Part shown: one piece after another, positions 5,086 through 39,421 of the stretch
Layout: each line of letters begins with the position of its first letter
How positions within the stretch are numbered: position 1 is the stretch's first letter
NCBI GenBank assembly: GCA_001804805.1
Contig: MHBH01000011.1
Span: 1 to 39,633 of the forward strand
Reading direction: 5' to 3'
Length of the DNA stretch: 39,633 nt
Source: Lentisphaerae bacterium GWF2_49_21
Lineage (GTDB): Bacteria > Verrucomicrobiota > Lentisphaeria > Victivallales > GWF2-50-93
Translations under genes and position numbers: made by a program
The notes under the pieces: model-generated
What the model was told of the DNA's origin: nothing
Seen by the model: only the letters and a program-made list of their open reading frames with translations
The model's database searches: none

Positions 5086-5847
5086 TTACCAAGGCATGAA
5101 TTCTGAATGATACGTTGTTTGATTTTGGGAAACAATCTTTTTAGTTAACGATAGGTTGGCAATTGGATTAAATGTAGTTGTCATTTTGGGTAAATTTGTC
5201 AAATTACTAACGACCACCAAGCTATATTCATCTTTATATTCTTGGGCTTTCATATATTCATTTTCAGTAAGCCTGATACTCCCGGAAGACTCTCTAATAC
5301 CTTTTATTTCAGCCAAAAAATATTTTCCAGACATCTGAACTTGAAAATCATAGCCATCCCCAAGCAATCTAGCATCATCCAGTATGCCAGTAGAAAAAGA
5401 ATCTATGGTCTGATAGTTATTCATAAAGTAAAGTTCGGCTTCTTTCCCAGTTTCTTGAAGTTGCTTAAAACGACTTTTCGTCACAGGGCTGACAGCTGTT
5501 GGTTTTAATATTACCCCAAATTTGCCTTCAATGTAGATTTTGACAATTCCAGAGTATTGCACGGCATCGAGATTTCCAAACAATGAATCAATAAGAATTT
5601 TCCTGTGAATATATGCATTGCCTTTTTGCCACCAGCCTTTTCTGCCGCTGTCAAAAAATGGGTCAAAAAGGTCTTGACGGTTTTTTACAGTACCAGGTGT
5701 TTCTGCAATTTTTAATTCTACAATATACTGATAGAAGGCTTTTTTTGTTCTAACCCCAAACTCTTTAAAAAAACACATACCGAACTTTGCCAATCCGTAG
5801 CCTATTAAATTCAGTATTTCGTAGTTTTCATGTTTGCCGTTATTCAT
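5086..5847 (-). CDS. DUF3883 (NO VEIN C-terminal)-like nuclease-fold protein
   Basis: This 253-residue protein has a C-terminal half that fits the DUF3883 domain: helix with GKEAELYF (near 134-141), then LLGDGYDFQV (161-170), YFLAEIKG (176-183), SGSIRLTENEY and a YSLVVVSNL strand. D167, E180 and K182 line up as a PD-(D/E)xK catalytic set, so a DNase role is plausible. The N-terminal 130 residues are unfamiliar and could recognise DNA or a partner. DUF3883 domains are frequent in restriction and defence proteins. The gene is visibly AT-rich against the surrounding chromosome, suggesting transfer. It runs opposite to the small basic gene and has no obvious methyltransferase partner nearby. No strong ribosome site precedes the ATG. 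Confidence 0.65.
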   Translation of the reverse strand: MNNGKHENYEILNLIGYGLAKFGMCFFKEFGVRTKKAFYQYIVELKIAETPGTVKNRQDLFDPFFDSGRKGWWQKGNAYIHRKILIDSLFGNLDAVQYSGIVKIYIEGKFGVILKPTAVSPVTKSRFKQLQETGKEAELYFMNNYQTIDSFSTGILDDARLLGDGYDFQVQMSGKYFLAEIKGIRESSGSIRLTENEYMKAQEYKDEYSLVVVSNLTNLPKMTTTFNPIANLSLTKKIVSQNQTTYHSEFMPW

Positions 5848-17560: not shown

Positions 17561-20500
17561 ATGGCTAAATGTAGTATCACTGTGCCCGTATTTTTCAGGA
17601 TGGTCTTTGCGGCCATACTCGTCTCGATAGTTGCCGGATGCGCCAGCACATATTCGTTCAGGAACATCGAATCGGTATATACTTTCCAGAAGTTCAATGA
17701 GAGCAGGCTGGTGTCGGATTTGATAAGCCCGGACACCATACAGTATCTCCGCCTGAACTTCCTGGAGGGGGAATATGCTGAGAATCCGGAAGCAGTCATA
17801 GAGGCACTGGTCGGGAAGTTCGACAATTCCCGTGAAACTTCGGTGATAATGCCTATCTGCGAGCTTTCATACAGCCAGGGATTCAAATTTGAGCGGAAGG
17901 ATCCTCTGAAGGCGGCCTCCTATTATGCGCTCTGCGCGTCATTCAGCTACGATTACCTGCACAGGGGGATATTCCAGAGGACGAACTACATGGAAATTTC
18001 GTCCAAGCTCCTTCTTGCCGCCGGACTCTACAACAGTTCTATCTCAAGGGGGGTCATGCTGTGGCAGAAGACGGATACAACCTGGGACAAGGGGCTGGAT
18101 CTGGACCTTGGATACAGGAAATATTCGATTACAGTCAGGACCGACGATGACCATCTGTTCAATCCCGATTTCTTCAACGTGATACGGTCAGCCTACGACT
18201 ATGATGTGCAGGGATTCACAAATTCCTTCCGTTCTAACGGACTCGGCGCCTCGCTGTTCGGCGTCCATGAAAAAAGGGAGGAGATAGACGACGAGCATTA
18301 TCCGAAGCATTTCTTCCTGCCAATGACGGCTGTCCTCGAATTCAAGCCGATGCCTGTCGACATGAAACAGCCGAGGAAGGCTGACCTCAGGTTCTACAAT
18401 GCGCTGAGGACCGACAAGATGGATCTCGGAGGAGCGCCCTTCCGTATTGACGCCGACTTTACCATTCCGCTTGCGGTTTTCCTTGCAGACAACGATCCGT
18501 CGAGATTCAGCTTCATGGGGCTGAAGAATCCAAGCAAGCTCAGGGAGATGAGCAACATTTTCATGATGGAGCCATATGATCCTGGCAAGATCCCGCTGCT
18601 TCTCGTGCACGGCCTCTATTCAAGCCCGGCCACCTTCCTGGAGATGTACAACGATTTCCTGGGAATTCCGGAAATAAGGCTCCGATACCAGATATGGTTC
18701 TTCTATTATCCGACCGGCCTGCCCATAACCGACTCCAGCAGCATTCTCAGGAGGAACCTGAAAGGGATACACGACAAGTACAATTCCGATGGCAAGAATC
18801 CGAATTTCAACAACATGCTCGTGGTCGGACACAGCATGGGCGGAATACTTACGGACCTCATGACCAAGGACAGCGGCACCAAATTCTATGATTCCGTATT
18901 CAATGTTCCCCTGGACAGCGGAGATTTCACGCCCCAGGAGAAGGAACTCCTCAAGCAAAACATGTTCTTCGCTCATTTTCCGTTCATTAAAAGATGCGTC
19001 TTCATAGCGACGCCTCATCGCGGAAGCGATATTGCGATAGCCTGGTGGGCCCGCATTCTTTCAAGGACGATCAGCCTTCCGGCGGATTTTGTCAATGCCA
19101 CGTCGGATGTCATCATCAAGAAGAAGAGATTGCTGAAGGAGATGCCTCCGGAGTACCAGGACGTGATACCGACTTCCGTCCAGCAGCTTGCGCCCAAGGC
19201 CAGGATCATCCAGGTCAATTCCGAACTGCCATATTATAGCGGCCTGAAATATCATTCCATTATCGGAATACGCGATGCCGACAAGGGGTCGGGCAGCAGC
19301 GACGGGATAGTCCCGTATGAAAGCTCCCATCTCGACGGTGCATTGTCGGAATATCTGGTAAAAGACTCCCACACCTGCGTTAGCAACCCATATACAATTG
19401 CCGAGGTCAAGAGGATCGCCCTTTTGCACCTCAAGGAGATCGATGATCAGAAAGCTGAGTTAAAGGAGAAGGAGACTGACAGCGGCACGGACTACGTAAA
19501 ATTTTCAAAGGTGATGCTTGCTCTTTCGAACAACCAGGAATTCATGGAAAGGCTGATGAACGGGATCGGGCGCGATCCCGACGCGGGCGGAGTGCTCGGG
19601 CCGGAAGAGCTCCAGCTCCTGAAGAAACTGATCTTCAGCAAGGATTTCGCCCTATTCGACTTCTTTCCCGGATTTACAGTCAGGGGAATGGGACTGGCCT
19701 ACGAACTGGCCGGAAACGCGGTCAAGAAGCGCCAGGAGAATAATCCTGACGCTGCTGTAAAGGCGGACGAGTATCCGGAACTTAAGGCGGACGTGGTCGA
19801 GGAGCTTGGAATTCCCGTCAAGGGAAAAGTGAATCCTCCGGCCATCGATTCCCTTCTCAGGGATATCGGCCCCGGGCTCAAGATGGGGGAACTGTACGAT
19901 CCAGAAGCAATAAAGATGAGGCCTGACAACCTGCGCATGGCGGAAGTCCTCAACAGGCTCTCGCTGAATCCGGCGGAGAAAGGGAAGCCCAAATACGTGA
20001 TCAGAATGGGGGAGGATCTGGTTGACACTCCTCAGGCGCTGATTGAGAAGCTGATCAATTCCAACTGCAAGGTGGAGGTCAGGGATGCGCGGTATTTTGC
20101 AAATTTCGGGAAGCTCTTCTACAATGGGCAGGAAGTGCTTACGGCATACTGGATCAACACGGAATTCCCCATACCGGGAACAGATAAGACCCTTCTGGTG
20201 CCAGTAGGGCATTCGCAGCACGAACTCAATATTGAGGGGTCTGATTTCAAGATGCGGCTCATCTACTACTTCGGCAGCGACGGGAAGCTCGAATTCCGCT
20301 CGTTTGACACTGTCGACCAGACCTGGATTGGCGGAAGAGTTGCGAAGATCTACGATGGCAAACAGGCGATAGAGGTGGTAAGGATCGCAGGGGAGTCCAT
20401 CAGGACGTATAAGAGGATCCAGAAGGAGAATCCAGATCTTCCGTTCGGGGGGTATTACAAGCTGGGCGTCTGCCTCGACGCGAACGCGATCATTGAATTC

Positions 20501-20758
20501 CACATGACAGGCCGGACTACTCAATTTCCGCTGACGCATGACGTGAAATATTTCAAGGGCGACAGCGAGGTGGAGAAGATCATGAGAAAGCTCCCATGCG
20601 ACGGAGGGGATGTCCCGCCCGATCCCCAGAGGATAGTCGGCTCCATGCCTGCGGATGACATTTCAAAGCTTACGATTCCGGAGCTCCGCGAACAGCTGAA
20701 GTTGATCAAAGATGCCAGAATGGCCGAGAAATACCAGCCGATCCAGCAGGGGAAATGA
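17561..20758 (+). CDS. Very large lipase-like alpha/beta-hydrolase lipoprotein
   Basis: This 1065-residue protein starts with a lipoprotein signal ending in VAGC (C27). The alpha/beta-hydrolase core begins around residue 345 with LLLVHGLYSSPATF (oxyanion loop). It continues with the nucleophile elbow GHSMGG (S425) and a FIATPHRGSDIA segment typical of PGAP1/LCAT-like lipases. D581 (SSDGIVP) and H604 (DSHTC) complete a plausible triad. The N-terminal 330 residues and the last 350 residues, including FYNGQEV and LLVPVGHSQHEL, match nothing I recognise. It is likely anchored to the outer membrane or periplasmic face and hydrolyses an ester or lipid. AAGGA precedes the ATG. Fold and catalytic residues are well supported; the substrate is unknown. 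Confidence 0.75.
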   Translation: MAKCSITVPVFFRMVFAAILVSIVAGCASTYSFRNIESVYTFQKFNESRLVSDLISPDTIQYLRLNFLEGEYAENPEAVIEALVGKFDNSRETSVIMPICELSYSQGFKFERKDPLKAASYYALCASFSYDYLHRGIFQRTNYMEISSKLLLAAGLYNSSISRGVMLWQKTDTTWDKGLDLDLGYRKYSITVRTDDDHLFNPDFFNVIRSAYDYDVQGFTNSFRSNGLGASLFGVHEKREEIDDEHYPKHFFLPMTAVLEFKPMPVDMKQPRKADLRFYNALRTDKMDLGGAPFRIDADFTIPLAVFLADNDPSRFSFMGLKNPSKLREMSNIFMMEPYDPGKIPLLLVHGLYSSPATFLEMYNDFLGIPEIRLRYQIWFFYYPTGLPITDSSSILRRNLKGIHDKYNSDGKNPNFNNMLVVGHSMGGILTDLMTKDSGTKFYDSVFNVPLDSGDFTPQEKELLKQNMFFAHFPFIKRCVFIATPHRGSDIAIAWWARILSRTISLPADFVNATSDVIIKKKRLLKEMPPEYQDVIPTSVQQLAPKARIIQVNSELPYYSGLKYHSIIGIRDADKGSGSSDGIVPYESSHLDGALSEYLVKDSHTCVSNPYTIAEVKRIALLHLKEIDDQKAELKEKETDSGTDYVKFSKVMLALSNNQEFMERLMNGIGRDPDAGGVLGPEELQLLKKLIFSKDFALFDFFPGFTVRGMGLAYELAGNAVKKRQENNPDAAVKADEYPELKADVVEELGIPVKGKVNPPAIDSLLRDIGPGLKMGELYDPEAIKMRPDNLRMAEVLNRLSLNPAEKGKPKYVIRMGEDLVDTPQALIEKLINSNCKVEVRDARYFANFGKLFYNGQEVLTAYWINTEFPIPGTDKTLLVPVGHSQHELNIEGSDFKMRLIYYFGSDGKLEFRSFDTVDQTWIGGRVAKIYDGKQAIEVVRIAGESIRTYKRIQKENPDLPFGGYYKLGVCLDANAIIEFHMTGRTTQFPLTHDVKYFKGDSEVEKIMRKLPCDGGDVPPDPQRIVGSMPADDISKLTIPELREQLKLIKDARMAEKYQPIQQGK

Positions 20759-20782: not shown

Positions 20783-20856
20783 GCCACCAAGGCACAAAGA
20801 TAGAGATATTCCTTTGATTTGCCATGTAGGATTTTCCGTCTTTGTGGCTCTGTGGC
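20783..20856. terminator. Imperfect inverted repeat between convergent genes
   Basis: GCCACCAAGGCACAAAG (20783-20799) pairs with CTTTGTGGCTCTGTGGC (20840-20856) at 14 of 17 positions around a 40-base loop. It sits between two genes that end towards each other, so it may act as a terminator on both strands. CACAAAG/CTTTGTG words of this kind also occur as dispersed repeats in many genomes. Confidence 0.45.
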
Positions 20857-20875: not shown

Positions 20876-22642
20876 TTATTTTATCTTGCGTATCAGCTCG
20901 AAGTTTGCGATCCTCGCAATAACGACTCCTTCTTTGTCCTTCTCCAGCTGGCCGTCGGCATTTTCCGAAAGTATGAAATCGTTTCTTGCCAGGCATGAGC
21001 CGTCGTACCCGTACGCCAGCATCCTGCTCTTCAATTCCGCAATGACATCTTCAACCTGCTCGGCCGGAAGACGTCCGATAGAGATGGCTGTTTCAGCATC
21101 GACCGGTTTCAGGAGCGGTCCGCTTTCCTGCTCAGCCACCCATTCGTCAAGCCCGTTGTAGTATCCGCGCAATGTAATGTAGTCGCGATCCTCCCTCAGC
21201 AACGGTTCGCCGACCGGGGTCTTCAGATGATTCAACTGGAGATAATGCCGATTGTCCAGATCTGGAGTCAGGCCGCGGCCCCTCGTCATGTAGACCGCAC
21301 GGACATAGACGGCCGGCAGGCCGTGATCTGCCAGTTCACGTGCGATCGCGAACTCCTCGAAAGGACTGTTATACCCGTATTTAAGGACTGCATCAGACAC
21401 CGATACATCGCTGGAATCTCCGGCCCGCTCCCCCATTTTCGAGGTTTTCCAGACAAGATGGACATGGTCCTTTGTAAGAGTGTAGAACACTTCGCTGCGC
21501 TGGGACAGCCGCCAGAAAGGTTCACGGCGCCAACGCTCCGGCAGAAAGTAGTCGAAGAGATGTCCGTTCCGTCCAACCACCCACAATTCTCCGCCAGTGC
21601 TTTCAACGCGTCCGTATACATATGGCACACCCAGGATTTCCATCTGCATAAGATGCTGGGGCAGGTGGGTCGGCTTGAAACGGTCCCTCTGGTCGTCGAG
21701 GTAGCGATGGCGTCTTGCCCTGGCAACTTCCTTTTCATATTTAGGCGTGCGCAAGACCAGCTCGTAGTCCACAACCGAATAGCGTCCTTTCTCCAGGAGC
21801 TCCCGCAGGTTCGCCGCCTGTGCACGAATACGTTCCTCGTCTGACACACCTGTGCATTCGAAGACTCCGGCCTCGTCGTCTGCACGCACAATCAGGTGGA
21901 CCGGTTTCATGTCCGCCATCACAAATCCCTTCTGTTCCAGATCCCGGATCGCATGTTTAGTCAAGGGTTCGAGATGTGTCTGCAGGTCCGCGCCGGCAAT
22001 TCCGACCTTTTCCAGTATCTCCACGATGTTCTGGCCGGGTATCCAGGCGTAGATCAGCTTATATTGGCGGAGGATGTCCAGCTCGATGCCGGGATGACGT
22101 GCGTGGATCCGGTTGATCTTCTCCAGGGAGCGGCCGCTCTGCCAGACCTGCATCCGTTCGGGGGGGACATAGATGGCCAGAGGTTCCTGGGTCCGTACAT
22201 TCCGGTCCTGCGGTCCGTATTTTCCCTCCCTCATCTCCATCACCAGCGAGAATTCCTCCCACGGACTGTTGAACTCAGCATTGATGAATTCCATAAGCGT
22301 GTGCGTCTCCAGCGGAACGTCTTCGCCGACACGGCTGTTCTTCACGACCAGGTCCAGATGGCAGCCATCCACCGTCTTTGTAGGCACCCGGTAGACGGCG
22401 CTCGTGCCTTCGAGCTTTTCCCTGTATGTCTCGAACCAATCCCTGGCGTACCAGTTTTCCACGTCGAGCAGCTTCGCATGGGCCAGGCCGAACTGGGTGA
22501 GGTAGATATCTCCGCCGTCCGAAGTCTTGCGGTGCACGTAGACCACTCCGAGCACGGTCACAAGTTCGGAAGCTGAAACCGTTGCGAGTGAAGTTATCTC
22601 TCCTATGAAGTTTTCCTGCTGGGGATTCTGTTTATTGCACAT
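20876..22642 (-). CDS. Protein of two tandem kinase-like halves, uncharacterised
   Basis: This 588-residue soluble protein has an apparent internal duplication. The first half has LGVVYVH...GGDIYLTQFG (31-52), a beta3-like lysine in HLDLVVKNSRVGED (K101), glutamates in FNSPWEEFSLVMEMRE (E129/E130) and a hinge-like LIYAWIPG. A catalytic-loop-like MADMKPVHLIV (D244) and a DFG-like VVDYELV (D292) follow. The second half repeats LGVPYVYG...GGELWVVGRNG, HVHLVWKTSKMGER, YNSPFEEFAIARELAD and ends with IANFELIRK. Its catalytic-loop aspartate is less clear (CLARNDFILS). I read this as two protein- or small-molecule-kinase-like folds, the second probably degenerate. No signal peptide is seen. It runs opposite to the giant genes on both sides. 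No named family is recognised. Confidence 0.6.
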   Translation of the reverse strand: MCNKQNPQQENFIGEITSLATVSASELVTVLGVVYVHRKTSDGGDIYLTQFGLAHAKLLDVENWYARDWFETYREKLEGTSAVYRVPTKTVDGCHLDLVVKNSRVGEDVPLETHTLMEFINAEFNSPWEEFSLVMEMREGKYGPQDRNVRTQEPLAIYVPPERMQVWQSGRSLEKINRIHARHPGIELDILRQYKLIYAWIPGQNIVEILEKVGIAGADLQTHLEPLTKHAIRDLEQKGFVMADMKPVHLIVRADDEAGVFECTGVSDEERIRAQAANLRELLEKGRYSVVDYELVLRTPKYEKEVARARRHRYLDDQRDRFKPTHLPQHLMQMEILGVPYVYGRVESTGGELWVVGRNGHLFDYFLPERWRREPFWRLSQRSEVFYTLTKDHVHLVWKTSKMGERAGDSSDVSVSDAVLKYGYNSPFEEFAIARELADHGLPAVYVRAVYMTRGRGLTPDLDNRHYLQLNHLKTPVGEPLLREDRDYITLRGYYNGLDEWVAEQESGPLLKPVDAETAISIGRLPAEQVEDVIAELKSRMLAYGYDGSCLARNDFILSENADGQLEKDKEGVVIARIANFELIRKIK

Positions 22643-22949
22643 ATGGATGTCCGGCTGTCGGTCTTTGTATAATGATTAGGGGTTCCGTTAGAATATGATC
22701 CAGCTAATCTATACCGGTTAAATAATGATTCAAGACCGGGGAATCTCACTGTGGCAAATTGAAACATGTTTCTTGGGAAACTATACTATCAGGTTTTTCT
22801 TCCCAATAGATTATGATACAAGCTATAATATGAGTTGGAGACATGAGGGCTTTGATGAATTATTCCTGCGTTTGTATGGATGAGAACTTCCATGGAATAC
22901 TGGAGCTTGTCAAGTCAAAATGCCAGGGGAGGGGATTGAAAGGAATATG
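22643..22949. other. Divergent intergenic region before the giant TPR gene
   Basis: This 300-base gap separates the divergent kinase-like and TPR genes. It is AT-rich and holds a TATAAT at 22824-22829 without a good -35 box, another TATAAT near 22670, and the short ORF described separately. No repeat, RNA gene or strong terminator is visible. Confidence 0.4.
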
Positions 22950-28092: not shown

Positions 28093-29235
28093 ATGAAAAA
28101 AACTTTATTGATGCTTTTTGCAGCCGCTCTTCTTTTGCAGGGTTGTGGAAAAAAAGAGAAGGCCGAGGCGCCGCCGCCGGCAGTCACCGTGGTCAAGGTT
28201 GCAAGTGGGAATGTAACTTCGGCAATGGAGATCATCGGCCAGTTGAAGGCGTATGACGAGGTCGATCTCGTGGCACGTGTCCAGGGATTCCTCAGGAAGA
28301 TATCGTTCAAGGAAGGGTCCGTTGTCAGCAAGGATCAGCCTCTCTTTGAAATTGAGCAGGAACAGTATAAGGCGCAGGTCGAGGCGGCGACGGCGGCCCT
28401 GATGAAGGTGCAGGCGACGTACGGAAATGCAGAGACGACCTATAACCGCCAGAAGAAACTTTTAGAAAGCGATGCGACCGCCAAGAAGAACTATGATGAC
28501 GCTGCTGCGGCATTCATGGAGGCCAAGGCCGCGGTCATGCAGGCGGAGGCCACGCTTGCGACCGCAAAGCTCGACTTGAGCTATACGGATATAAAAGCGC
28601 CGTTCGACGGCAGGATCGGCTTCTACACCTACAGCGAAGGCAACCTTGTCGGCCCTTCCAGCAAGCGTCTTGCAAATGTCGTCAAGCTTGATCCGATGAG
28701 GGTCCAGTTCAACATCAACGAGATTGATCTTGTGAACCTGCAGATGGACCGCGCCAAGGACAACGCTCCTAAGAAAGGCACGATGATCGTGCTGGTACAG
28801 TTCCAGGATGGAAAGACCTATAAGGAGGAAGGCCGGATAAGTTTCGCCGACAACAAGGTCAACAGCTCAACCGGAACGATATTGGTCGAGGCGCTCTTTC
28901 CCAATCCCGACCAGATCCTCGTCCCGGGAATGTATGTAAAGGTGATATTGAAGGACAAGGAGCAGAAGGCCGCCCTGCTGATCCCGCAGTCGTCAATCCA
29001 GGAAAGCCTGCAAGGGAAGTTCGTGCTTGTGGTCGGAACGGACAAGAAGGTCGGCCAGCGCGATATAAAGACCGGAATCAAGAGCGGACCTTCGATAGAG
29101 GTCACGGATGGTCTCAAGGAAGGGGAGATGGTCATTGTGGAAGGCCTGCAGAAGGTCAAACTTGAATCGGCGGTGAAGCCGACTGTTGACGAGACCTACA
29201 CGTTCAACAAGCTTGAAACGCAGGACAAGAAATGA
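28093..29235 (+). CDS. RND efflux periplasmic adaptor lipoprotein (AcrA/MexA family), first set
   Basis: This 380-residue membrane fusion protein has a lipobox LLQGC (C18). Order of parts: beta-barrel strand, lipoyl half-motif (LVARVQGFLRKISFKEGSVV), alpha-hairpin rich in alanine and lysine, second lipoyl half (DLSYTDIKAPFDGRIG), beta-barrel, and membrane-proximal domain ending in TDGLKEGEMVIVEGL. It links the inner-membrane pump to a TolC-type outer membrane channel; no such channel is in the window. ACAGGA lies ahead of the ATG. Its stop overlaps the permease start (ATGA), so both are made at a fixed ratio. Confidence 0.92.
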   Translation: MKKTLLMLFAAALLLQGCGKKEKAEAPPPAVTVVKVASGNVTSAMEIIGQLKAYDEVDLVARVQGFLRKISFKEGSVVSKDQPLFEIEQEQYKAQVEAATAALMKVQATYGNAETTYNRQKKLLESDATAKKNYDDAAAAFMEAKAAVMQAEATLATAKLDLSYTDIKAPFDGRIGFYTYSEGNLVGPSSKRLANVVKLDPMRVQFNINEIDLVNLQMDRAKDNAPKKGTMIVLVQFQDGKTYKEEGRISFADNKVNSSTGTILVEALFPNPDQILVPGMYVKVILKDKEQKAALLIPQSSIQESLQGKFVLVVGTDKKVGQRDIKTGIKSGPSIEVTDGLKEGEMVIVEGLQKVKLESAVKPTVDETYTFNKLETQDKK

Positions 29236-32200
29236 TCAGCAAGTTCTTCATAGACCGTCCCCGTTTTGCGATAGTGATCGCCATAGTGATAACCATTGCC
29301 GGTCTGATTTCCATCTTCGCCCTGCCTGTTGCGCAGTATCCCAACATCACGCCATCGCAGGTGCAGATAACAGCAATGTTCCCCGGTGCCGACGCCGATA
29401 CCGTACTCAAGACCGTCGTCGAACCGATCGAGGCGCAGGTGAACGGCGTCAAGGGCATGATGTACATATCTTCTACGAGTTCCGACGACGGGACCGCGAT
29501 AATCACGGTGACTTTTCCCGCAGGAACAGGTGGTGACATAAATACTGTGAACGTCCAGAACAAGGTCAGCATTGCCGAGCCCAAGCTTCCGACGGAGGTG
29601 AAGGCACAGGGCCTCATTGTCAAGGAAAAATCAAGCAACATCCTGCTTGTCATAAGCCTCTATTCCCCGAAAGGCACACGCGATCCGATCTTCCTGAGCA
29701 ACTATGTCAACATCTTCATCCGCGACGAGATCATGAGGATAAACGGGGTGGGCGACAGCACGACGCTTGGTGCGGCCGTCTATTCGATGCGTCTCTGGCT
29801 GAATCCCGACAGGATGTCCAGCCTGGGACTGACAGCATCCGACGTGATCAACACTATCAAGCAGCAGAACGTCCAGGTGTCCGCAGGTGCGATCGGCGAA
29901 GCTCCTTGTGCGTCAGACCAGCCGTTCCGCTTCACGATACAGACACAGGGACGTCTTGACTCGGAGAAACAGTTCGAGGAGATAGTGGTGAAGGCGATGC
30001 CGGACGGAAACAATGTCAAGGTCAAGGACATCGGCCGCGTCGAACTCGGTGCCGAGAACTACAATTCCGAAAGCTCTCTCAATGGAAAACCTGCTTCACT
30101 GCTTGCGGTGTACCAGCTGCCCGAGGCGAACGGCATCCAGATAGCTCAGGCGTGCAGGAAACGTCTCGATGAACTCAAGGAGAAATTTCCTGAAGATCTG
30201 GATTACGGCATCCAGTACGACACCACCAAATTCATCAAGGCGTCGATAGAAGAAGTCGTAAAGACTCTTTATGAGGCGGTGTTCCTGGTGATCCTTGTGA
30301 ACTTCCTCTTCCTGCAGTGCTGGCGCTCCACGCTCATACCGACAATTGCGGTTCCAGTTTCCCTCATCGGCACGTTCGCGGTGCTTCTGGCCCTCGGATA
30401 TTCCATCAACCTCATAACTCTTTTCGGTCTGATACTTGCGATCGGAATCGTGGTCGATGACGCAATCCTGGTGATAGAAAACGTGAACCATCTCATGAGC
30501 TCCGAGAATCTTTCGCCGCGCGATGCCGCCAGGAAGACAATGGATCAGGTGACTGGCCCGATCATTGCGACAACACTCGTCCTCCTCGCCATGTTCATCC
30601 CAGTCTGCTTCATGCCCGGGATCACCGGAGAGATGTACCGCCAGTTCGGAGTGACCATCTCTGTCTCCGTGCTGATATCGGCCATAAACGCGCTCACGCT
30701 GAGCCCTGCGCTCTGCGCCACGCTGCTGAAACCTGAAGTGAAGGGCAAGAAGCTTTTCTTCGTCTTCAGATGGTTCAATTCGATTTTTGATGTGACTACG
30801 AAAGGTTATCTGAGGATTGCCGGGCTGGTGATCCGCAAGGCCTTCATCGTCATGATCATCTATGGCGGACTCATATTTGCGTGCTGGAAGATCTACGGAA
30901 TGCTTCCTACTGGTTTCATCCCCGACGAGGACCAGGGACTGTTCATGGTGAACGTCCAGCTTCCAGAGGCCTCTTCGCTTCCGCGCACCACGAGAATCAC
31001 AAACCAGGCCACCGAGGCGATGCTGAGCGTTCCGGGCATGACAGATTCCCTTGCGACGACCGGATACAGCATCATCACCTCGACCTCTGCGTCAAACAAC
31101 GCGTTCATAATCGGAGTCCTCGACGACTGGGCCAAGCGCAAGGATCCGGAGCTAAGCCAGGAATCGGTAATGCGCAAGATACTCGCCAAGTTCATGGCGA
31201 TCCCCGGGGCCATGATAATGCCTTTCAATATCCCGGCGATCCCCGGTCTTGGAACTTCCGGAGGATTTTCATTTGTCATACAGGATACCACAAGCTCTGA
31301 TCCGCAGAATCTCTTTCAGGCGATGAGCCAGGTCGTGCTGGAGGCGAACCAGCGTCCAGAGATCACTGGCGCGTTTTCGACTTTCCGTGCCAGCGTCCCA
31401 AGGATATTCCTCAAGTTCGACCGTGAGAAGGCGCTGAAGCTGGGAGTCTCCATAGACGAGATTAACACTGTGCTCAAAGGTCTGGCCGGATATACCTATA
31501 TCAATGACTTCAACAAGTTCGGAAAGACATACAAGGTCGAGATGCAGGCTGATTCCAAGTATCGTGCCGAACTCGACAACGTCATGGGGCTGCACGTCAG
31601 GAACAACAAGGGTGAAATGGTTCCGATCAATACGCTGGTAATTCCCGAGACGCGTTTCGCCCCGCAGTATATGAACCGCTACAACCTGTACCCGTCGGTC
31701 ACGATAAACGGGAATTCCGCAGCCGGATACAGTTCCGGACAGGCCATGAAGGCGATGGAGGAGATTGCAGCGAAAAATCTTCCCGAGGGCATGAAATACG
31801 AATGGACGGATATGTCATACCAGGAGAAGCTTGCCGGAAACAAGGCCGCGATAATCTTCGGACTCGCCCTGTTCTTCATTTATCTTTTTCTAGTTGCGCA
31901 ATACGAAAGCTGGATGATCCCGCTGGCGGTGTTGCTGTCAGTGCCGATCGCCTTCTTCGGCTCGCTTCTCTTCCTCCTGTTCTGCGGGCTGGACAACAAT
32001 ATCTACACACAGGTCGGATTCGTGCTCCTGTTCGGCATCGCCTGCAAGACAGCCATTCTCATCGTCGAGTTCGCCAAGGAAAGCCATGAGAAGGGCATGA
32101 GCATAACGGAAGCGGCAGCCCATGCCGCGAAGCTCAGGTTCAGGGCGGTGATGATGACGGCCATTGCGTTTGTCCTGGGAGTTACGCCTCTTGTCCTGGC

Positions 32201-32351
32201 TTTCGGTGCTGGTGCCGTCAGCCGCCGTTCGCTCGGAACAGTCGTCTTCGGCGGAATGCTCGTCTCATGTGTTTTCGGGACAATCCTGATACCAGTATTC
32301 TACGTGGTGGTCCAGAAGATGATCAACGCCTTCTCGAGCAAGTCAAAATGA
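29232..32351 (+). CDS. RND multidrug efflux permease (AcrB/HAE1 family), first set
   Basis: This 1039-residue proton-driven inner-membrane pump has the family start MISKFFIDRPRFAIVIAIV and 12 predicted membrane helices. The transmembrane relay is conserved: D409 and D410 in GIVVDDAILVIENV (AcrB D407/D408) and K939 in ACKTAILIVEFAKE (AcrB K940). Two large periplasmic loops and the GFIPDEDQG porter motif are present, so it looks complete and functional. It is coupled to its adaptor by ATGA. Its own stop overlaps, again by ATGA, the start of a fragment of a restriction enzyme, which is odd. Substrates cannot be told from sequence. Confidence 0.95.
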   Translation: MISKFFIDRPRFAIVIAIVITIAGLISIFALPVAQYPNITPSQVQITAMFPGADADTVLKTVVEPIEAQVNGVKGMMYISSTSSDDGTAIITVTFPAGTGGDINTVNVQNKVSIAEPKLPTEVKAQGLIVKEKSSNILLVISLYSPKGTRDPIFLSNYVNIFIRDEIMRINGVGDSTTLGAAVYSMRLWLNPDRMSSLGLTASDVINTIKQQNVQVSAGAIGEAPCASDQPFRFTIQTQGRLDSEKQFEEIVVKAMPDGNNVKVKDIGRVELGAENYNSESSLNGKPASLLAVYQLPEANGIQIAQACRKRLDELKEKFPEDLDYGIQYDTTKFIKASIEEVVKTLYEAVFLVILVNFLFLQCWRSTLIPTIAVPVSLIGTFAVLLALGYSINLITLFGLILAIGIVVDDAILVIENVNHLMSSENLSPRDAARKTMDQVTGPIIATTLVLLAMFIPVCFMPGITGEMYRQFGVTISVSVLISAINALTLSPALCATLLKPEVKGKKLFFVFRWFNSIFDVTTKGYLRIAGLVIRKAFIVMIIYGGLIFACWKIYGMLPTGFIPDEDQGLFMVNVQLPEASSLPRTTRITNQATEAMLSVPGMTDSLATTGYSIITSTSASNNAFIIGVLDDWAKRKDPELSQESVMRKILAKFMAIPGAMIMPFNIPAIPGLGTSGGFSFVIQDTTSSDPQNLFQAMSQVVLEANQRPEITGAFSTFRASVPRIFLKFDREKALKLGVSIDEINTVLKGLAGYTYINDFNKFGKTYKVEMQADSKYRAELDNVMGLHVRNNKGEMVPINTLVIPETRFAPQYMNRYNLYPSVTINGNSAAGYSSGQAMKAMEEIAAKNLPEGMKYEWTDMSYQEKLAGNKAAIIFGLALFFIYLFLVAQYESWMIPLAVLLSVPIAFFGSLLFLLFCGLDNNIYTQVGFVLLFGIACKTAILIVEFAKESHEKGMSITEAAAHAAKLRFRAVMMTAIAFVLGVTPLVLAFGAGAVSRRSLGTVVFGGMLVSCVFGTILIPVFYVVVQKMINAFSSKSK

Positions 32352-35069: not shown

Positions 35070-36245
35070 ATGCGTCACTGTAAATATATGCTTCTTGCGT
35101 GTGTCCTGCTGCTTGCCTCGTGCAATAAAAAACCAGTTGCACCTCCACCGCCCCCGCCGGGCGTGGTGTGCGCTCCGGCTGTGAAGCAGGATGTCGCCAC
35201 GACACATGGATATATTGGACAGATCGTCGCCGAGGACTGGGTGGATCTTGTTGCACGTGTCGAAGGTTTCCTTGTCATGAAGAACTTCGAGGAAGGAAGC
35301 TTTGTCAAGAAGGACGATCTCGTCTTCGAAATAGATCCCCGCCCATATGAGGCGCAGGTGAAGGAGGCGGAAGGTCAGCTTGTACATGCGCAGGCCTCAT
35401 TGACATATGCCAACATCCAGGTCGAACGCTACAAGACACTGGTAAAACAGGATGCCGCCTCGCAGAAGGATCTCGATTCGGCAGTCATGACCCAGGGCGT
35501 CTCCACAGGTGAAGTCCTGGTCGCGCAGGGCCAGCTTGAGGTAGCGAAGATAAACCTCGGATACACGAAGATCTCCGCCCCGTTCGACGGCAAGCTCGGG
35601 GTATGCCCGATCAGCGTTGGAAATCTCGTCGGACCGACCATCAACAACAACCTCTGTAAGCTCGTAAGGATGGATCCGGTAAAGGTGGAATTCAACGTTC
35701 CGGAACCGATTGTCGTAAGCATTACACAGAGGGATGGCAACATTGAAAGGATTGCATCGGAGGTGACTCCGAGGCTGGTACTTGCCAACGGTACTGAATA
35801 TCCCCTGGACGGGAAGATCTATTTTGCGGACAATACCATCAATACATCCACCGGAACCCTCCTTATCCGCGCCCGGTTCGATAATCCGAAAGGCATTCTT
35901 ACTGCCGGTGAATATGTCAGGCTCAGGATTGAAAGGAAGGAAAAAACACCGTCAATACTCATTCCGGCACTCGCCATCCAGAGGGATCAGACAGGTGAGC
36001 TTGTCTATGTCGTCGACAAGGATTCCAAGGTGCAGAGCCGCAAAGTCACGACGGGCCAGATTTCCGGACTCAACATAGTCATCACAACAGGTCTCTCCGA
36101 AGGCGAGAATGTGATTGTCCAGGGCATATTGAAGGCCCGGCCGGGAATGACTGTCAATATGACAATGGCTGGTTCGACAAAAGCAGAATTGAATACCCAG
36201 CCGCCAGTTCCGGATGCAAAATCAAAACCGCCTTCCGGCAAATAA
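35070..36245 (+). CDS. RND efflux periplasmic adaptor lipoprotein, second set
   Basis: This 391-residue membrane fusion protein of the same family as the one at 28.1 kb has lipobox LLASC (C18) followed by a proline-rich linker. Lipoyl halves LVARVEGFLVMKNFEEGSFV and NLGYTKISAPFDGKLG bracket a short alpha-hairpin. The beta-barrel and membrane-proximal domains are complete (TTGLSEGENVIVQGI). A GGAG precedes the ATG. It is 20 bases from its permease rather than overlapping it. Similarity to the first adaptor is evident but far from identity, so any duplication is old. Confidence 0.92.
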   Translation: MRHCKYMLLACVLLLASCNKKPVAPPPPPPGVVCAPAVKQDVATTHGYIGQIVAEDWVDLVARVEGFLVMKNFEEGSFVKKDDLVFEIDPRPYEAQVKEAEGQLVHAQASLTYANIQVERYKTLVKQDAASQKDLDSAVMTQGVSTGEVLVAQGQLEVAKINLGYTKISAPFDGKLGVCPISVGNLVGPTINNNLCKLVRMDPVKVEFNVPEPIVVSITQRDGNIERIASEVTPRLVLANGTEYPLDGKIYFADNTINTSTGTLLIRARFDNPKGILTAGEYVRLRIERKEKTPSILIPALAIQRDQTGELVYVVDKDSKVQSRKVTTGQISGLNIVITTGLSEGENVIVQGILKARPGMTVNMTMAGSTKAELNTQPPVPDAKSKPPSGK

Positions 36246-36265
36246 AACTGCAAGAGGCGCTTTAG

Positions 36266-39200
36266 ATGATAAGTAAAATCTTCATTCACAGGCCAAGGCT
36301 GGCATTCGTCATTTCCATAGTGCTGGTCATTGCAGGGCTCATCTCCATCTTCAGCCTGCCTGTCTCACAGTTTCCCAATATCACACCTCCGCAGGTGCAG
36401 GTCTCATCCACATATACCGGAGCCAGCGCAAGCGTCGTGACGAACACCGTGGTGACGCCTCTGGAAAACCAGATAAACGGTGTCGAGGACATGATCTACA
36501 TGTCGTCCACCGGCGGAAACGACGGTTCCCAGAACACGATGATATCCTTCTATCCGGGCACGAGCGGCGACATGAATACTGTCAACACGCAGAACCGCGT
36601 GAGTTTGGCGACCCCCCAGCTTCCCGACAGCGTCAAACGGCAGGGGATCACCGTCAAGCAGAAGTCCACCAACATGCTGCTGATCATCAATCTCTACTCT
36701 CCGAAGAACACATACGATTCGGTCTTCCTCAGCAATTACGCCCTAATAAACATCCAGAATGAAATGCTCCGCATCAGGGGAGTTGCCGACGCGAAGATCC
36801 TCGGGGAACTCGACTATTCGATGCGCATCTGGCTCGATTCCGACAAGATGGCAAGCCTTAACATGTCGCCGCAGGAGGTGACAAATGCCATACAGGCGCA
36901 GAACGTACAGGCCGCCGCCGGGCAGATAGGAATGCCTCCAACTCCGTCGGGACAGGCCAACCAGCTGATGATCCAGATCAAGGGCAGATTGGAAGACAAG
37001 GATGAGTTTTCCGAAATTGTCGTCCGCGCATTGCCGGACGGCTCGCAGATCAAGATCAAGGACATAGCGAATGTCGAACTGGGCGCCTTCAGCTACCAGT
37101 CGTTCGGCGAGCGTGACAACATGCCCGGGCTGAACCTTGCCATTTACCAGCTGCCTTCGGCGAACGGACTCCAGATCGCCGACACCGTCTACAAGAAGAT
37201 GAAGGATCTGGAACAGTATTTTCCCGAGGATCTCAAGTATTCGATAAATTATGACACCACGCAGTTCGTGCGCCGTTCGATCAAGGAGGTCGTATTCACC
37301 CTTTTCATTGCGGTGGCGCTTGTCATCGGCGTCGTATTCCTCTTCCTGCAGGACTGGCGCGCCGTCATCGTTCCGATGCTCGCGGTACCCGTCTCCCTGA
37401 TCGGCACATTCGCCGCGCTTCTTGCGATGGGCTACTCCATAAATCTCGTCTCCCTCTTCGGCCTGATACTTGCCATAGGAATAGTCGTGGACGACGCGAT
37501 TGTCGTTGTGGAGAATTGCAAGCGCCTCATGGCGGAGGAGGGGCTCGATCCGGTAAGGGCCACCGAGAAGACCATGGAGCAGGTCACAAACCCCATCATC
37601 GCCACCACCTTCGTCCTCATGGCCATGTTCATCCCCGTCTGCTTCCTTCCCGGGATCTCCGGTTCGCTCTACAGGCAGTTCGCGATCACCATATCATGCT
37701 CCGTCTTCATCTCCGCGATAAACGCCATGACGCTGAGCCCCGCGCTCTGCGCCACCTTCATCAGGCCGGAAACAAAGGAGCCCATACTGCCGTTCCGCAT
37801 GTTCAACAAGTTCTTCGAATGGGTCACCCTCGGATTCGCCTCTGTATCTACAATGTTCGCACGCCGCGCCTTCCTATGCGTGATTTTCCTCGCCGCATGC
37901 CTCTGGGGCTGCAACTGGCTCTATCAGAGAATTCCTACGGGATTCATACCCGACGAGGACATGGGAATATTCTTCGTGAACGTCCAGCTTCCTGAGGCCG
38001 CATCGGTCGAACGCACACATGCCGTCGTAAAGAAGGCCACCGACAAGATACTGAAGATCGAAGGCGTCGACCATGTCCTGGCGGTCACCGGCTTCAACAT
38101 GATGGACCAGGTGAGCAATCCCAACAACGCATTGCTCATCGTGACTCTCAAGGACTGGGACCAGCGCAAGGTTCCAAGCCTCTTCCAGAAATCGATAATG
38201 CACAGACTCAATGGCGAACTGAACGTCATACCCGACGCCGCATTCTTCTGTTTCCCTCTGCCTGCGATTCCAGGACTCGGCACGGCGGGAGGACTCTCGT
38301 TCATCGTCGAGGATCTGCGCGGCGTCGATCCGCAGGTGCTCTCGCAGATTCTCATGGCGTTCATCATGGAGTCGAAGAAATATCCCGAGATCGGAAGCGC
38401 CTACAGCACCTACAGCGCGACAGTGCCGCAGATCTACCTCGAGATAGACCGCGAGAAGGTGATGAAGCTCGAACTCAGCCTGTCTGACGTATTCAACGCC
38501 CTCCAGTCATATCTGGGATCATATTATGTGAACGACTTCAACAAGTACGGCCAGGTATTCAAGGTCATGATCCAGGCGCAGGGACAGTTCCGAAAGGACG
38601 TGGACGACATCATGGGCATATATGTTACCAACAAGAAAGGCAAGATGGTGCCGATTGGAACTTTCGCCAATGCGAAGATAGTGTTCGGTCCTCAGACAGT
38701 CTTCAGATATAACATGTACCAGGCCGTCAGGATAAACGGATCAGCTGCGCCGGGCGCAAGTTCAGGCCAGGCAATGGGAGCATTCGAGAACATCGCAAAG
38801 ACTGTTCTTCCTGAAGGCTTCAAGTATGAGTGGACCGACATGTCATATCAGGAACTCCAGGCGGCAGGCAAGGCCGGATTCATTTTTGCGCTTGCCCTGC
38901 TTTTCATCTACCTCTTTCTTGTGGGACAGTATGAAAGCTGGATGATACCGATCGCGATCATGCTCTCCGTTCCTGTCGCTCTGCTCGGTTCACTTGCATT
39001 CCTGTATATGCTCGGTGTCGAGAACGACATCTACACGCAGATAGGATTCGTGCTCCTCTTCGGCATGACGTGCAAGACCGAGATCCTTATTGTCGAATTT
39101 GCCGTGCACATGCGAGAACGAGGAATGGGAATAGTGGAATCCGCGATCGAGGCGCGAAAGACGCGTTTCCGCGCAGTGGTCATGACCGGTACCGCTTTCA

Positions 39201-39421
39201 TCCTCGGCGTATTTCCGCTGGTGATCGCCATCGGAGCAGGAGCCGCGTGCCGCCGCTCTCTCGGAACTGCGGTATTCGGAGGAATGATAGTCGGTGAAGT
39301 CCTCGGAACAATCATGACACCCATGTTCTACGTCGCCATCCAGTGGCTCCGCGAAAAAGTCGGCGGCTGGAAACCTCCGGTATTGCCAGAAACGCCAGAA
39401 TCCCAAAAGGCAGTGAAATGA
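36266..39421 (+). CDS. RND multidrug efflux permease (AcrB/HAE1 family), second set
   Basis: This 1051-residue permease is collinear with the first one. It starts MISKIFIHRPRLAFVISIV and keeps D409/D410 in GIVVDDAIVVVENC at exactly the same positions, with K937 in helix 10. The residues after that lysine read T-E (KTEILIVEFAVH), placing an extra acid (E939) where AcrB and the first permease have alanine; this could tune proton coupling. The C-terminus adds a proline-rich tail. AGAGG lies eight bases before the ATG. It pairs with the adaptor just upstream. Complete, probably functional, substrate unknown. Confidence 0.95.
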   Translation: MISKIFIHRPRLAFVISIVLVIAGLISIFSLPVSQFPNITPPQVQVSSTYTGASASVVTNTVVTPLENQINGVEDMIYMSSTGGNDGSQNTMISFYPGTSGDMNTVNTQNRVSLATPQLPDSVKRQGITVKQKSTNMLLIINLYSPKNTYDSVFLSNYALINIQNEMLRIRGVADAKILGELDYSMRIWLDSDKMASLNMSPQEVTNAIQAQNVQAAAGQIGMPPTPSGQANQLMIQIKGRLEDKDEFSEIVVRALPDGSQIKIKDIANVELGAFSYQSFGERDNMPGLNLAIYQLPSANGLQIADTVYKKMKDLEQYFPEDLKYSINYDTTQFVRRSIKEVVFTLFIAVALVIGVVFLFLQDWRAVIVPMLAVPVSLIGTFAALLAMGYSINLVSLFGLILAIGIVVDDAIVVVENCKRLMAEEGLDPVRATEKTMEQVTNPIIATTFVLMAMFIPVCFLPGISGSLYRQFAITISCSVFISAINAMTLSPALCATFIRPETKEPILPFRMFNKFFEWVTLGFASVSTMFARRAFLCVIFLAACLWGCNWLYQRIPTGFIPDEDMGIFFVNVQLPEAASVERTHAVVKKATDKILKIEGVDHVLAVTGFNMMDQVSNPNNALLIVTLKDWDQRKVPSLFQKSIMHRLNGELNVIPDAAFFCFPLPAIPGLGTAGGLSFIVEDLRGVDPQVLSQILMAFIMESKKYPEIGSAYSTYSATVPQIYLEIDREKVMKLELSLSDVFNALQSYLGSYYVNDFNKYGQVFKVMIQAQGQFRKDVDDIMGIYVTNKKGKMVPIGTFANAKIVFGPQTVFRYNMYQAVRINGSAAPGASSGQAMGAFENIAKTVLPEGFKYEWTDMSYQELQAAGKAGFIFALALLFIYLFLVGQYESWMIPIAIMLSVPVALLGSLAFLYMLGVENDIYTQIGFVLLFGMTCKTEILIVEFAVHMRERGMGIVESAIEARKTRFRAVVMTGTAFILGVFPLVIAIGAGAACRRSLGTAVFGGMIVGEVLGTIMTPMFYVAIQWLREKVGGWKPPVLPETPESQKAVK

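Follow-up and report, generated by a model that had tools for sequence, protein, structure and literature searches.

The gene for a 588-aa protein in the window, by which we mean the whole 39,633-nucleotide stretch of Lentisphaerae bacterium GWF2_49_21 DNA analysed in this work, probably specifies a tandem kinase-pseudokinase belonging to an unnamed bacterial family within the protein-kinase-like (PKL) superfamily, whose N-terminal half would be the active kinase and whose C-terminal half would regulate or complete it. The features on which this assignment rests are collected in Table 1.

Domain duplication and kinase-like fold

The computational comparisons showed that the 588-aa protein arose by duplication of one kinase-like domain. 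When the chain was cut at residue 318, the two halves matched each other in BLASTP with an E value of 8e-6 over 118 residues, and their Smith-Waterman score of 83 exceeded by far the scores of shuffled sequences (mean 34.2, sd 4.9, maximum 53, n=500; z = 10). Alignment of an N-half with a C-half profile by hhalign, with 19 family members per side, gave a probability of 99.7% and an E value of 7e-27 over 235 aligned columns. The 235 columns span both domains, thus the repeat comprises whole domains and is more than the set of motifs from which a sequence-only reading had proposed it. All of those motifs are present in the shared order and conserved across the relatives, far beyond chance. The simplest account is a single duplication, with loss of the catalytic residues from the C-terminal copy preceding the spread of the two-domain family.

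The AlphaFold2 model of the whole protein, built from a 45-row family alignment (pLDDT 88.6, pTM 0.88), is kinase-like in both halves, as the same reading had anticipated, and in this model the bilobed fold of the PKL superfamily is present with an incomplete C-lobe. Prediction from the single sequence was useless (pLDDT 32.8), and the structural comparisons use the 45-row model alone. Foldseek against the PDB, run on the whole chain so that its TM-scores understate single-domain similarity, returned protein kinases (FIKK13, MAPK, PknB, CDKs) with E values of ~4e-4 to 3e-3 and probabilities near 1. With VIA-align 2, the C half reached Z 9.4 (DAPK1, residues 363-588) and the N half Z 9.0 (WaaP, residues 44-306); further rows included NIK, CK1, Pim1, APH (Z 8.1) and Rv3197/MABP-1, whose Z of 7.9 is tied with that of many other kinases. 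These scores are modest (Foldseek E ~4e-4, Z 8-9, rmsd 4-5 A), and because several families are tied, they identify the superfamily clearly and no subfamily.

In the genomes searched, the N-half profile also picked up proteins assigned to Pkinase by Pfam with E values of 1e-34 to 1e-41. The alignment is in register through the 'YEWIKG' hinge, helix alphaE and the catalytic loop (GFrvlDvKPehvIV against GFahrDlKPanvlV), which identifies D244 as the HRD Asp and K246 as the Lys of the HRD motif, and places H249 at the Asn position. The 588-aa protein itself had no Pfam or NCBIfam match over the cut-off, in agreement with the earlier remark that it belongs to no named family, and searches of PDB sequences gave chance matches only. 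Matches to PF00069 were found in 2 of 19 members (best E 0.097) and fell short of the gathering score (L033, 11.3 bits vs 31.7). The ABC1 family, PF03109, was matched weakly by 8 of the 19 (best E 2.7e-4), where shown from the hinge to the DFG motif, and L012 fell short of the gathering score (12.8 bits vs 22.9); the window protein had no PF03109 match. Since genuine Ser/Thr kinases also match ABC1, we regard this similarity as superfamily-wide. A Paratox match in Pfam (E 0.026), below the cut-off, was taken as chance.

Table 1. Features of the probable tandem kinase-pseudokinase gene (positions in the window)
Feature	Position	Strand	Basis
Two-domain protein gene, 588 aa	20876..22642	-	ORF list and family alignments
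N-terminal active-type kinase half, ~residues 24-316	21695..22573	-	hhalign/HMM limits; fold matches over model residues 22-309
Beta hairpin specific to the family (residues 27-48), upstream of the kinase core and distinct from the glycine loop	22499..22564	-	DSSP; starts of CK1/Pim1 alignments
K101, beta3 lysine, invariant	22340..22342	-	48/48 two-domain, 11/11 single-domain or split N forms
E130, helix alphaC glutamate, invariant	22253..22255	-	48/48 two-domain, 11/11 single-domain or split N forms
Catalytic loop D244-M-K246-P-V-H249	21896..21913	-	Profile aligned in register with genuine Pkinase proteins; invariance
DFG-like motif D292-Y-E294	21761..21769	-	D and E invariant, 48/48
Linker helix, residues 300-319, directly after the DFG-like motif, without activation segment	21686..21745	-	Alignments and model
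C-terminal pseudokinase half, ~residues 327-587	20882..21664	-	hhalign; structural matches inside 323-588 (Z up to 9.4)
K399, beta3-lysine equivalent	21446..21448	-	Kept in 41/48 (R in 5)
E430, alphaC glutamate equivalent	21353..21355	-	Kept in 46/48
Degenerate catalytic loop, residues 545-558	20969..21010	-	Asp position (550) variable
N580-F-E582, Asn in place of the DFG-like Asp	20897..20905	-	Asn in 46/48

Catalytic residues and extent of the lower lobe

Eight residues of the N half (K101, E129, E130, D244, K246, H249, D292 and E294) are invariant in the 48 two-domain proteins, and all but E129 are so in the 11 single-domain or split N forms as well. Of the key PKL residues, K72, E91, D166 and D184 (PKA numbering) thus have their equivalents in K101, E130, D244 and D292, whereas the position of N171, the Asn of HRDxxxxN, is occupied by histidine in 48/48 two-domain proteins and 11/11 single-domain or split forms. 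The sequence-only reading had correctly placed four of these elements, namely the lysine of beta3, helix C, the catalytic loop and the DFG-like site. Its glycine-rich strand (LGVxYV...GG) is a real and repeated element, but secondary structure and structural alignments put it upstream of the kinase core: CK1 and Pim1 align only from about residue 57-61 onwards, after the LGV...GGD hairpin. The equivalent of the glycine loop is most likely formed by residues 77-87 (LEGTSAVYRVP), as suggested by secondary structure and conservation; G79 is invariant in 19 of 19 two-domain proteins and present in at least 90% of the 45 alignment rows. On the strength of its conserved residues, the N half is predicted to be an active kinase with phosphotransferase activity.

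The C half has kept only K and E of the K/E/D/D key residues. It is without the catalytic Asp, a position filled by Asp in only 2 of the 48 two-domain proteins, and the Asp of its DFG motif is replaced by Asn; with at least one canonical residue lost, it falls under the definition of a pseudokinase. These losses are what a recent, functionless duplicate in decay would show, but we consider such an origin highly improbable. All of the C halves fall into a single, long-stemmed clade, separate from the N-half clade, and have N580 and many other invariant residues in common. Across phyla their conservation comes close to that of the N halves (mean pairwise identity 0.52 vs 0.57), and the pairwise distances of the two sets correlate at 0.91. 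Near-equal conservation and separate clades indicate that the pair has been maintained together under selection; by these sequence measures, the C half is a conserved, inherited pseudokinase and not a decaying copy. The earlier suggestions that a convincing catalytic-loop aspartate is confined to the first half, and that the chain is a tandem of active kinase and pseudokinase, are both borne out, the activity of the N half being a prediction.

Both halves end early. In single-domain members, 8-34 residues separate the DFG-like Asp from the chain end (8 in L026), and 8-33 residues are left after the corresponding position of the C half in almost every two-domain member (one row stems from a truncated contig). 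Structural alignments stop a few residues past the DFG motifs of the kinases, e.g. at DAPK1 7-169 and Pim1 33-198, where we take the DFG positions to lie just before the ends of the alignments. The short tails together with the alignment ends indicate that the activation segment and helices alphaF-alphaI are apparently absent, and by the same observations no equivalent of D220, at the start of helix alphaF, is present. D220 is among the ten key PKL residues, and DFG is followed by a divergent region of ~100 aa (PMC1821047). Almost every key residue has been replaced in at least one PKL family (PMC1821047), so His at the N171 position does not by itself exclude membership. The combination of His for Asn with the lack of an alphaF/D220 equivalent does mean that catalysis is not guaranteed, and a SteC construct ending soon after its DFG-like motif was inactive (PMC13395416). 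The linker helix (in which R311, Y314 and Q318 are conserved) and the family-specific N-terminal hairpin and helices (residues 27-73) may substitute for the missing lobe. It is quite possible, if short of probable, that these proteins represent a kinase family not described before, in which the catalytic domain by nature ends shortly past the DFG-like motif, without activation segment or alphaF-alphaI and with His for the metal-binding Asn, and is in most members paired within the same chain with an inherited pseudokinase copy that provides regulation or the missing substrate platform.

Distribution and genomic context

The family is patchy, occurs in at least two phyla and comprises two-domain, single-domain and split forms. 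In whole-genome searches, matches turned up in 26 of 387 genomes from the window's phylum, in 41 of 338 of the class of G174 and in ~13 of 167 of the phylum of the Fibrobacteres MAG that carries L031; in the window's own class, 3 of 197 genomes had clear matches, the window counted, and the other genomes of its genus and family (G001-G007) had no relative. Full-length relatives are ~39-59% identical to the window protein, which lies inside a fully supported, mostly Fibrobacterota clade together with proteins of G625 (own class) and G409 (same phylum). By contrast, rpoB of the window genome is 48% identical to that of L031's genome and ~60% to those of phylum mates. Transfer between phyla would be the simplest reading of the protein tree set against rpoB. 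No relative was found in plasmid, phage and viral-contig collections, which gives no support to an origin from a phage or plasmid. The 16S probe-site variant ACTCCTACGGGAGGCTGC in relatives of the window genome presumably indicates the Lentisphaerae/Kiritimatiellae side of the PVC group.

Most members have two domains. In G226 the halves are encoded separately by adjacent genes (L019/L038); G304 has two overlapping ORFs (L020/L042), which could reflect fission or a frameshift. Nine single-domain proteins, with the active residues kept, group next to the N halves in a tree without a fixed root, and this form may be either ancestral or reduced. The ORFs of a few relatives (e.g. L102, 1187 aa; L003, 780 aa) are much extended at the N terminus; these extensions contain no Pfam domain and were treated as unproven starts. 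At 8162-11751 of L127 (G677), two complete two-domain copies stand in tandem and are followed by a PfkB-family sugar kinase, a relative of which also adjoins the L128 copy.

The window gene is alone on the minus strand, convergent with a gene ending at 20758 and divergent from a TPR gene starting at 22920, 277 bp from its own start; its GC content (0.557) is similar to that of the neighbours (0.52-0.55). The convergent gene (17561-20758), which ends facing the kinase-gene stop, encodes a lipoprotein-like protein of 1065 aa that bears a lipase-type GHSMGG motif and has no match in Pfam. In the intergenic region just 3' of the kinase gene (20783-20856), TTTGTGnCTTnGTGGC-like words form an inverted pair, none being expected by chance in the window; the exact word TTTGTGnCTTnGTGGC occurs once in the source genome and three times in G004. 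Elsewhere in the window there are two gene pairs (28093-32351 and 35070-39421), each for an HlyD-type membrane-fusion protein and a protein of ~1040-1050 aa, which are mutually alike in BLASTP and look like two RND efflux pumps, as well as a gene (5086-5847) for a possibly defence-related protein of 253 aa that carries a NO VEIN C-terminal domain (NOV_C).

No conserved neighbours or operon partners of the two-domain genes were seen. The single-domain form is located directly upstream of argJ in all five genomes of the bacterial family f28 that hold it (L039, L040, L041, L046, L096), and the two genes overlap by 4 bases in L039, L046 and L096. This arrangement suggests that the two are co-translated and that, in the f28 lineage only, the kinase-like protein may be linked to arginine biosynthesis. 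PADLOC gave weak matches (best 8e-4), several of them to models that are presumably kinase-bearing (PD-T4-6, PglW). No conserved neighbourhood of a defence-like kind was seen, and a defence role was therefore not adopted.

Possible function and relation to known kinases

According to the tandem kinase-pseudokinase model, the N half would bind Mg-ATP and transfer phosphate, with D244 as the catalytic base and K101, E130, D292 and H249 holding nucleotide and metal. The non-catalytic C half would regulate the N half in cis or present the substrate, by analogy with JAK JH2 and plant tandem kinase-pseudokinases, and may replace the missing substrate-binding lobe. Single-domain relatives indicate that the C half is dispensable in some lineages, which counts against this model.

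The kind of substrate could distinguish a variant of this model, in which the N half is a small-molecule kinase resembling APH, choline kinase or lipopolysaccharide kinases and the C half forms part of the acceptor site. The lack of an activation loop, the position of argJ directly downstream of the single-domain form in the five holding genomes of one family, and the motif DFE instead of DFG, a feature shared with choline kinases, in which G186 has become E (PMC1821047), are compatible with this variant. WaaP and APH do appear among the structural rows, but they are tied in Z with protein kinases, the sequence alignment is to Pkinase-type proteins and no acceptor-site homology was found; we regard the variant as possible though rather doubtful. 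Another proposal is that both halves have the kinase fold without phosphorylating, as ATP sensors, scaffolds or enzymes of other chemistry (AMPylation or glutamylation, as SelO and SidJ), the N half binding nucleotide without phosphate transfer to a hydroxyl. Replacement of the metal-binding Asn by His in all members and the missing activation segment and alphaF-alphaI would fit it, and bacterial pseudokinases with other chemistry are known (PMC6858067). Nevertheless, the K/E/D/K/D set is invariant in all two-domain proteins and all single or split forms, and the catalytic loop is in register with that of active-type Ser/Thr kinases, therefore we consider this proposal unlikely.

The family shares with bacterial eukaryotic-like Ser/Thr kinases (PF00069, PknB-type) the fold, the K/E/D/K/D set and the in-register hinge, alphaE and catalytic loop. 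It differs from them by the lack of activation segment and alphaF-alphaI, by His for the Asn of HRDxxxxN, by DFE for DFG, by the extra N-terminal hairpin, by a conserved insert with the motif WQxGR that separates beta4 from beta5, and by the absence of any Pfam match over the cut-off. The ABC1/UbiB (ADCK) atypical kinases, e.g. Rv3197, share the weak Pfam matches described above, and Rv3197 is among the fold rows at a Z tied with many other kinases, but the window protein itself has no ABC1 match and the family is without the full C-lobe. A reduced C-lobe is also found in the minimal effector kinases OspG and SteC; SteC, likened here through the paper describing it and not by sequence, still needs alphaF (active minimum 210-429, PMC13395416), whereas chains of this family can end 8 residues past the DFG-like Asp. 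Kinase and pseudokinase are joined in one chain in the JAK family and in plant tandem kinase-pseudokinases (WTK1/Yr15, PMC6170490); the likeness is one of architecture within the superfamily, and the JAK order, in eukaryotes, is pseudokinase followed by kinase, in contrast to the bacterial order described here. The bacterial pseudokinase families ActPs1-3, GLW, CP1, DYD and DLHK, compared by description, are likewise conserved with lost catalytic motifs (PMC12599244).

The text of that 2025 review of bacterial pseudokinases (PMC12599244) does not contain 'tandem', 'two kinase', 'verrucomicrob' or 'fibrobacter'. In the open-access papers searched, the tandem kinase-pseudokinases were mainly plant proteins, and an earlier description is possible. 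None of the tested libraries names the family, which would be a new one within an established superfamily, unusual in how its domains are arranged and truncated. Pairing of a kinase with a pseudokinase is familiar chiefly from eukaryotes, where it serves regulation (JAKs, plant tandem kinases). A compact counterpart in prokaryotes, occurring in nature in fused, split and single-domain forms, would permit a direct test of what the pseudokinase copy contributes, and a kinase without the lower C-lobe tests the minimal fold needed for phosphotransfer.
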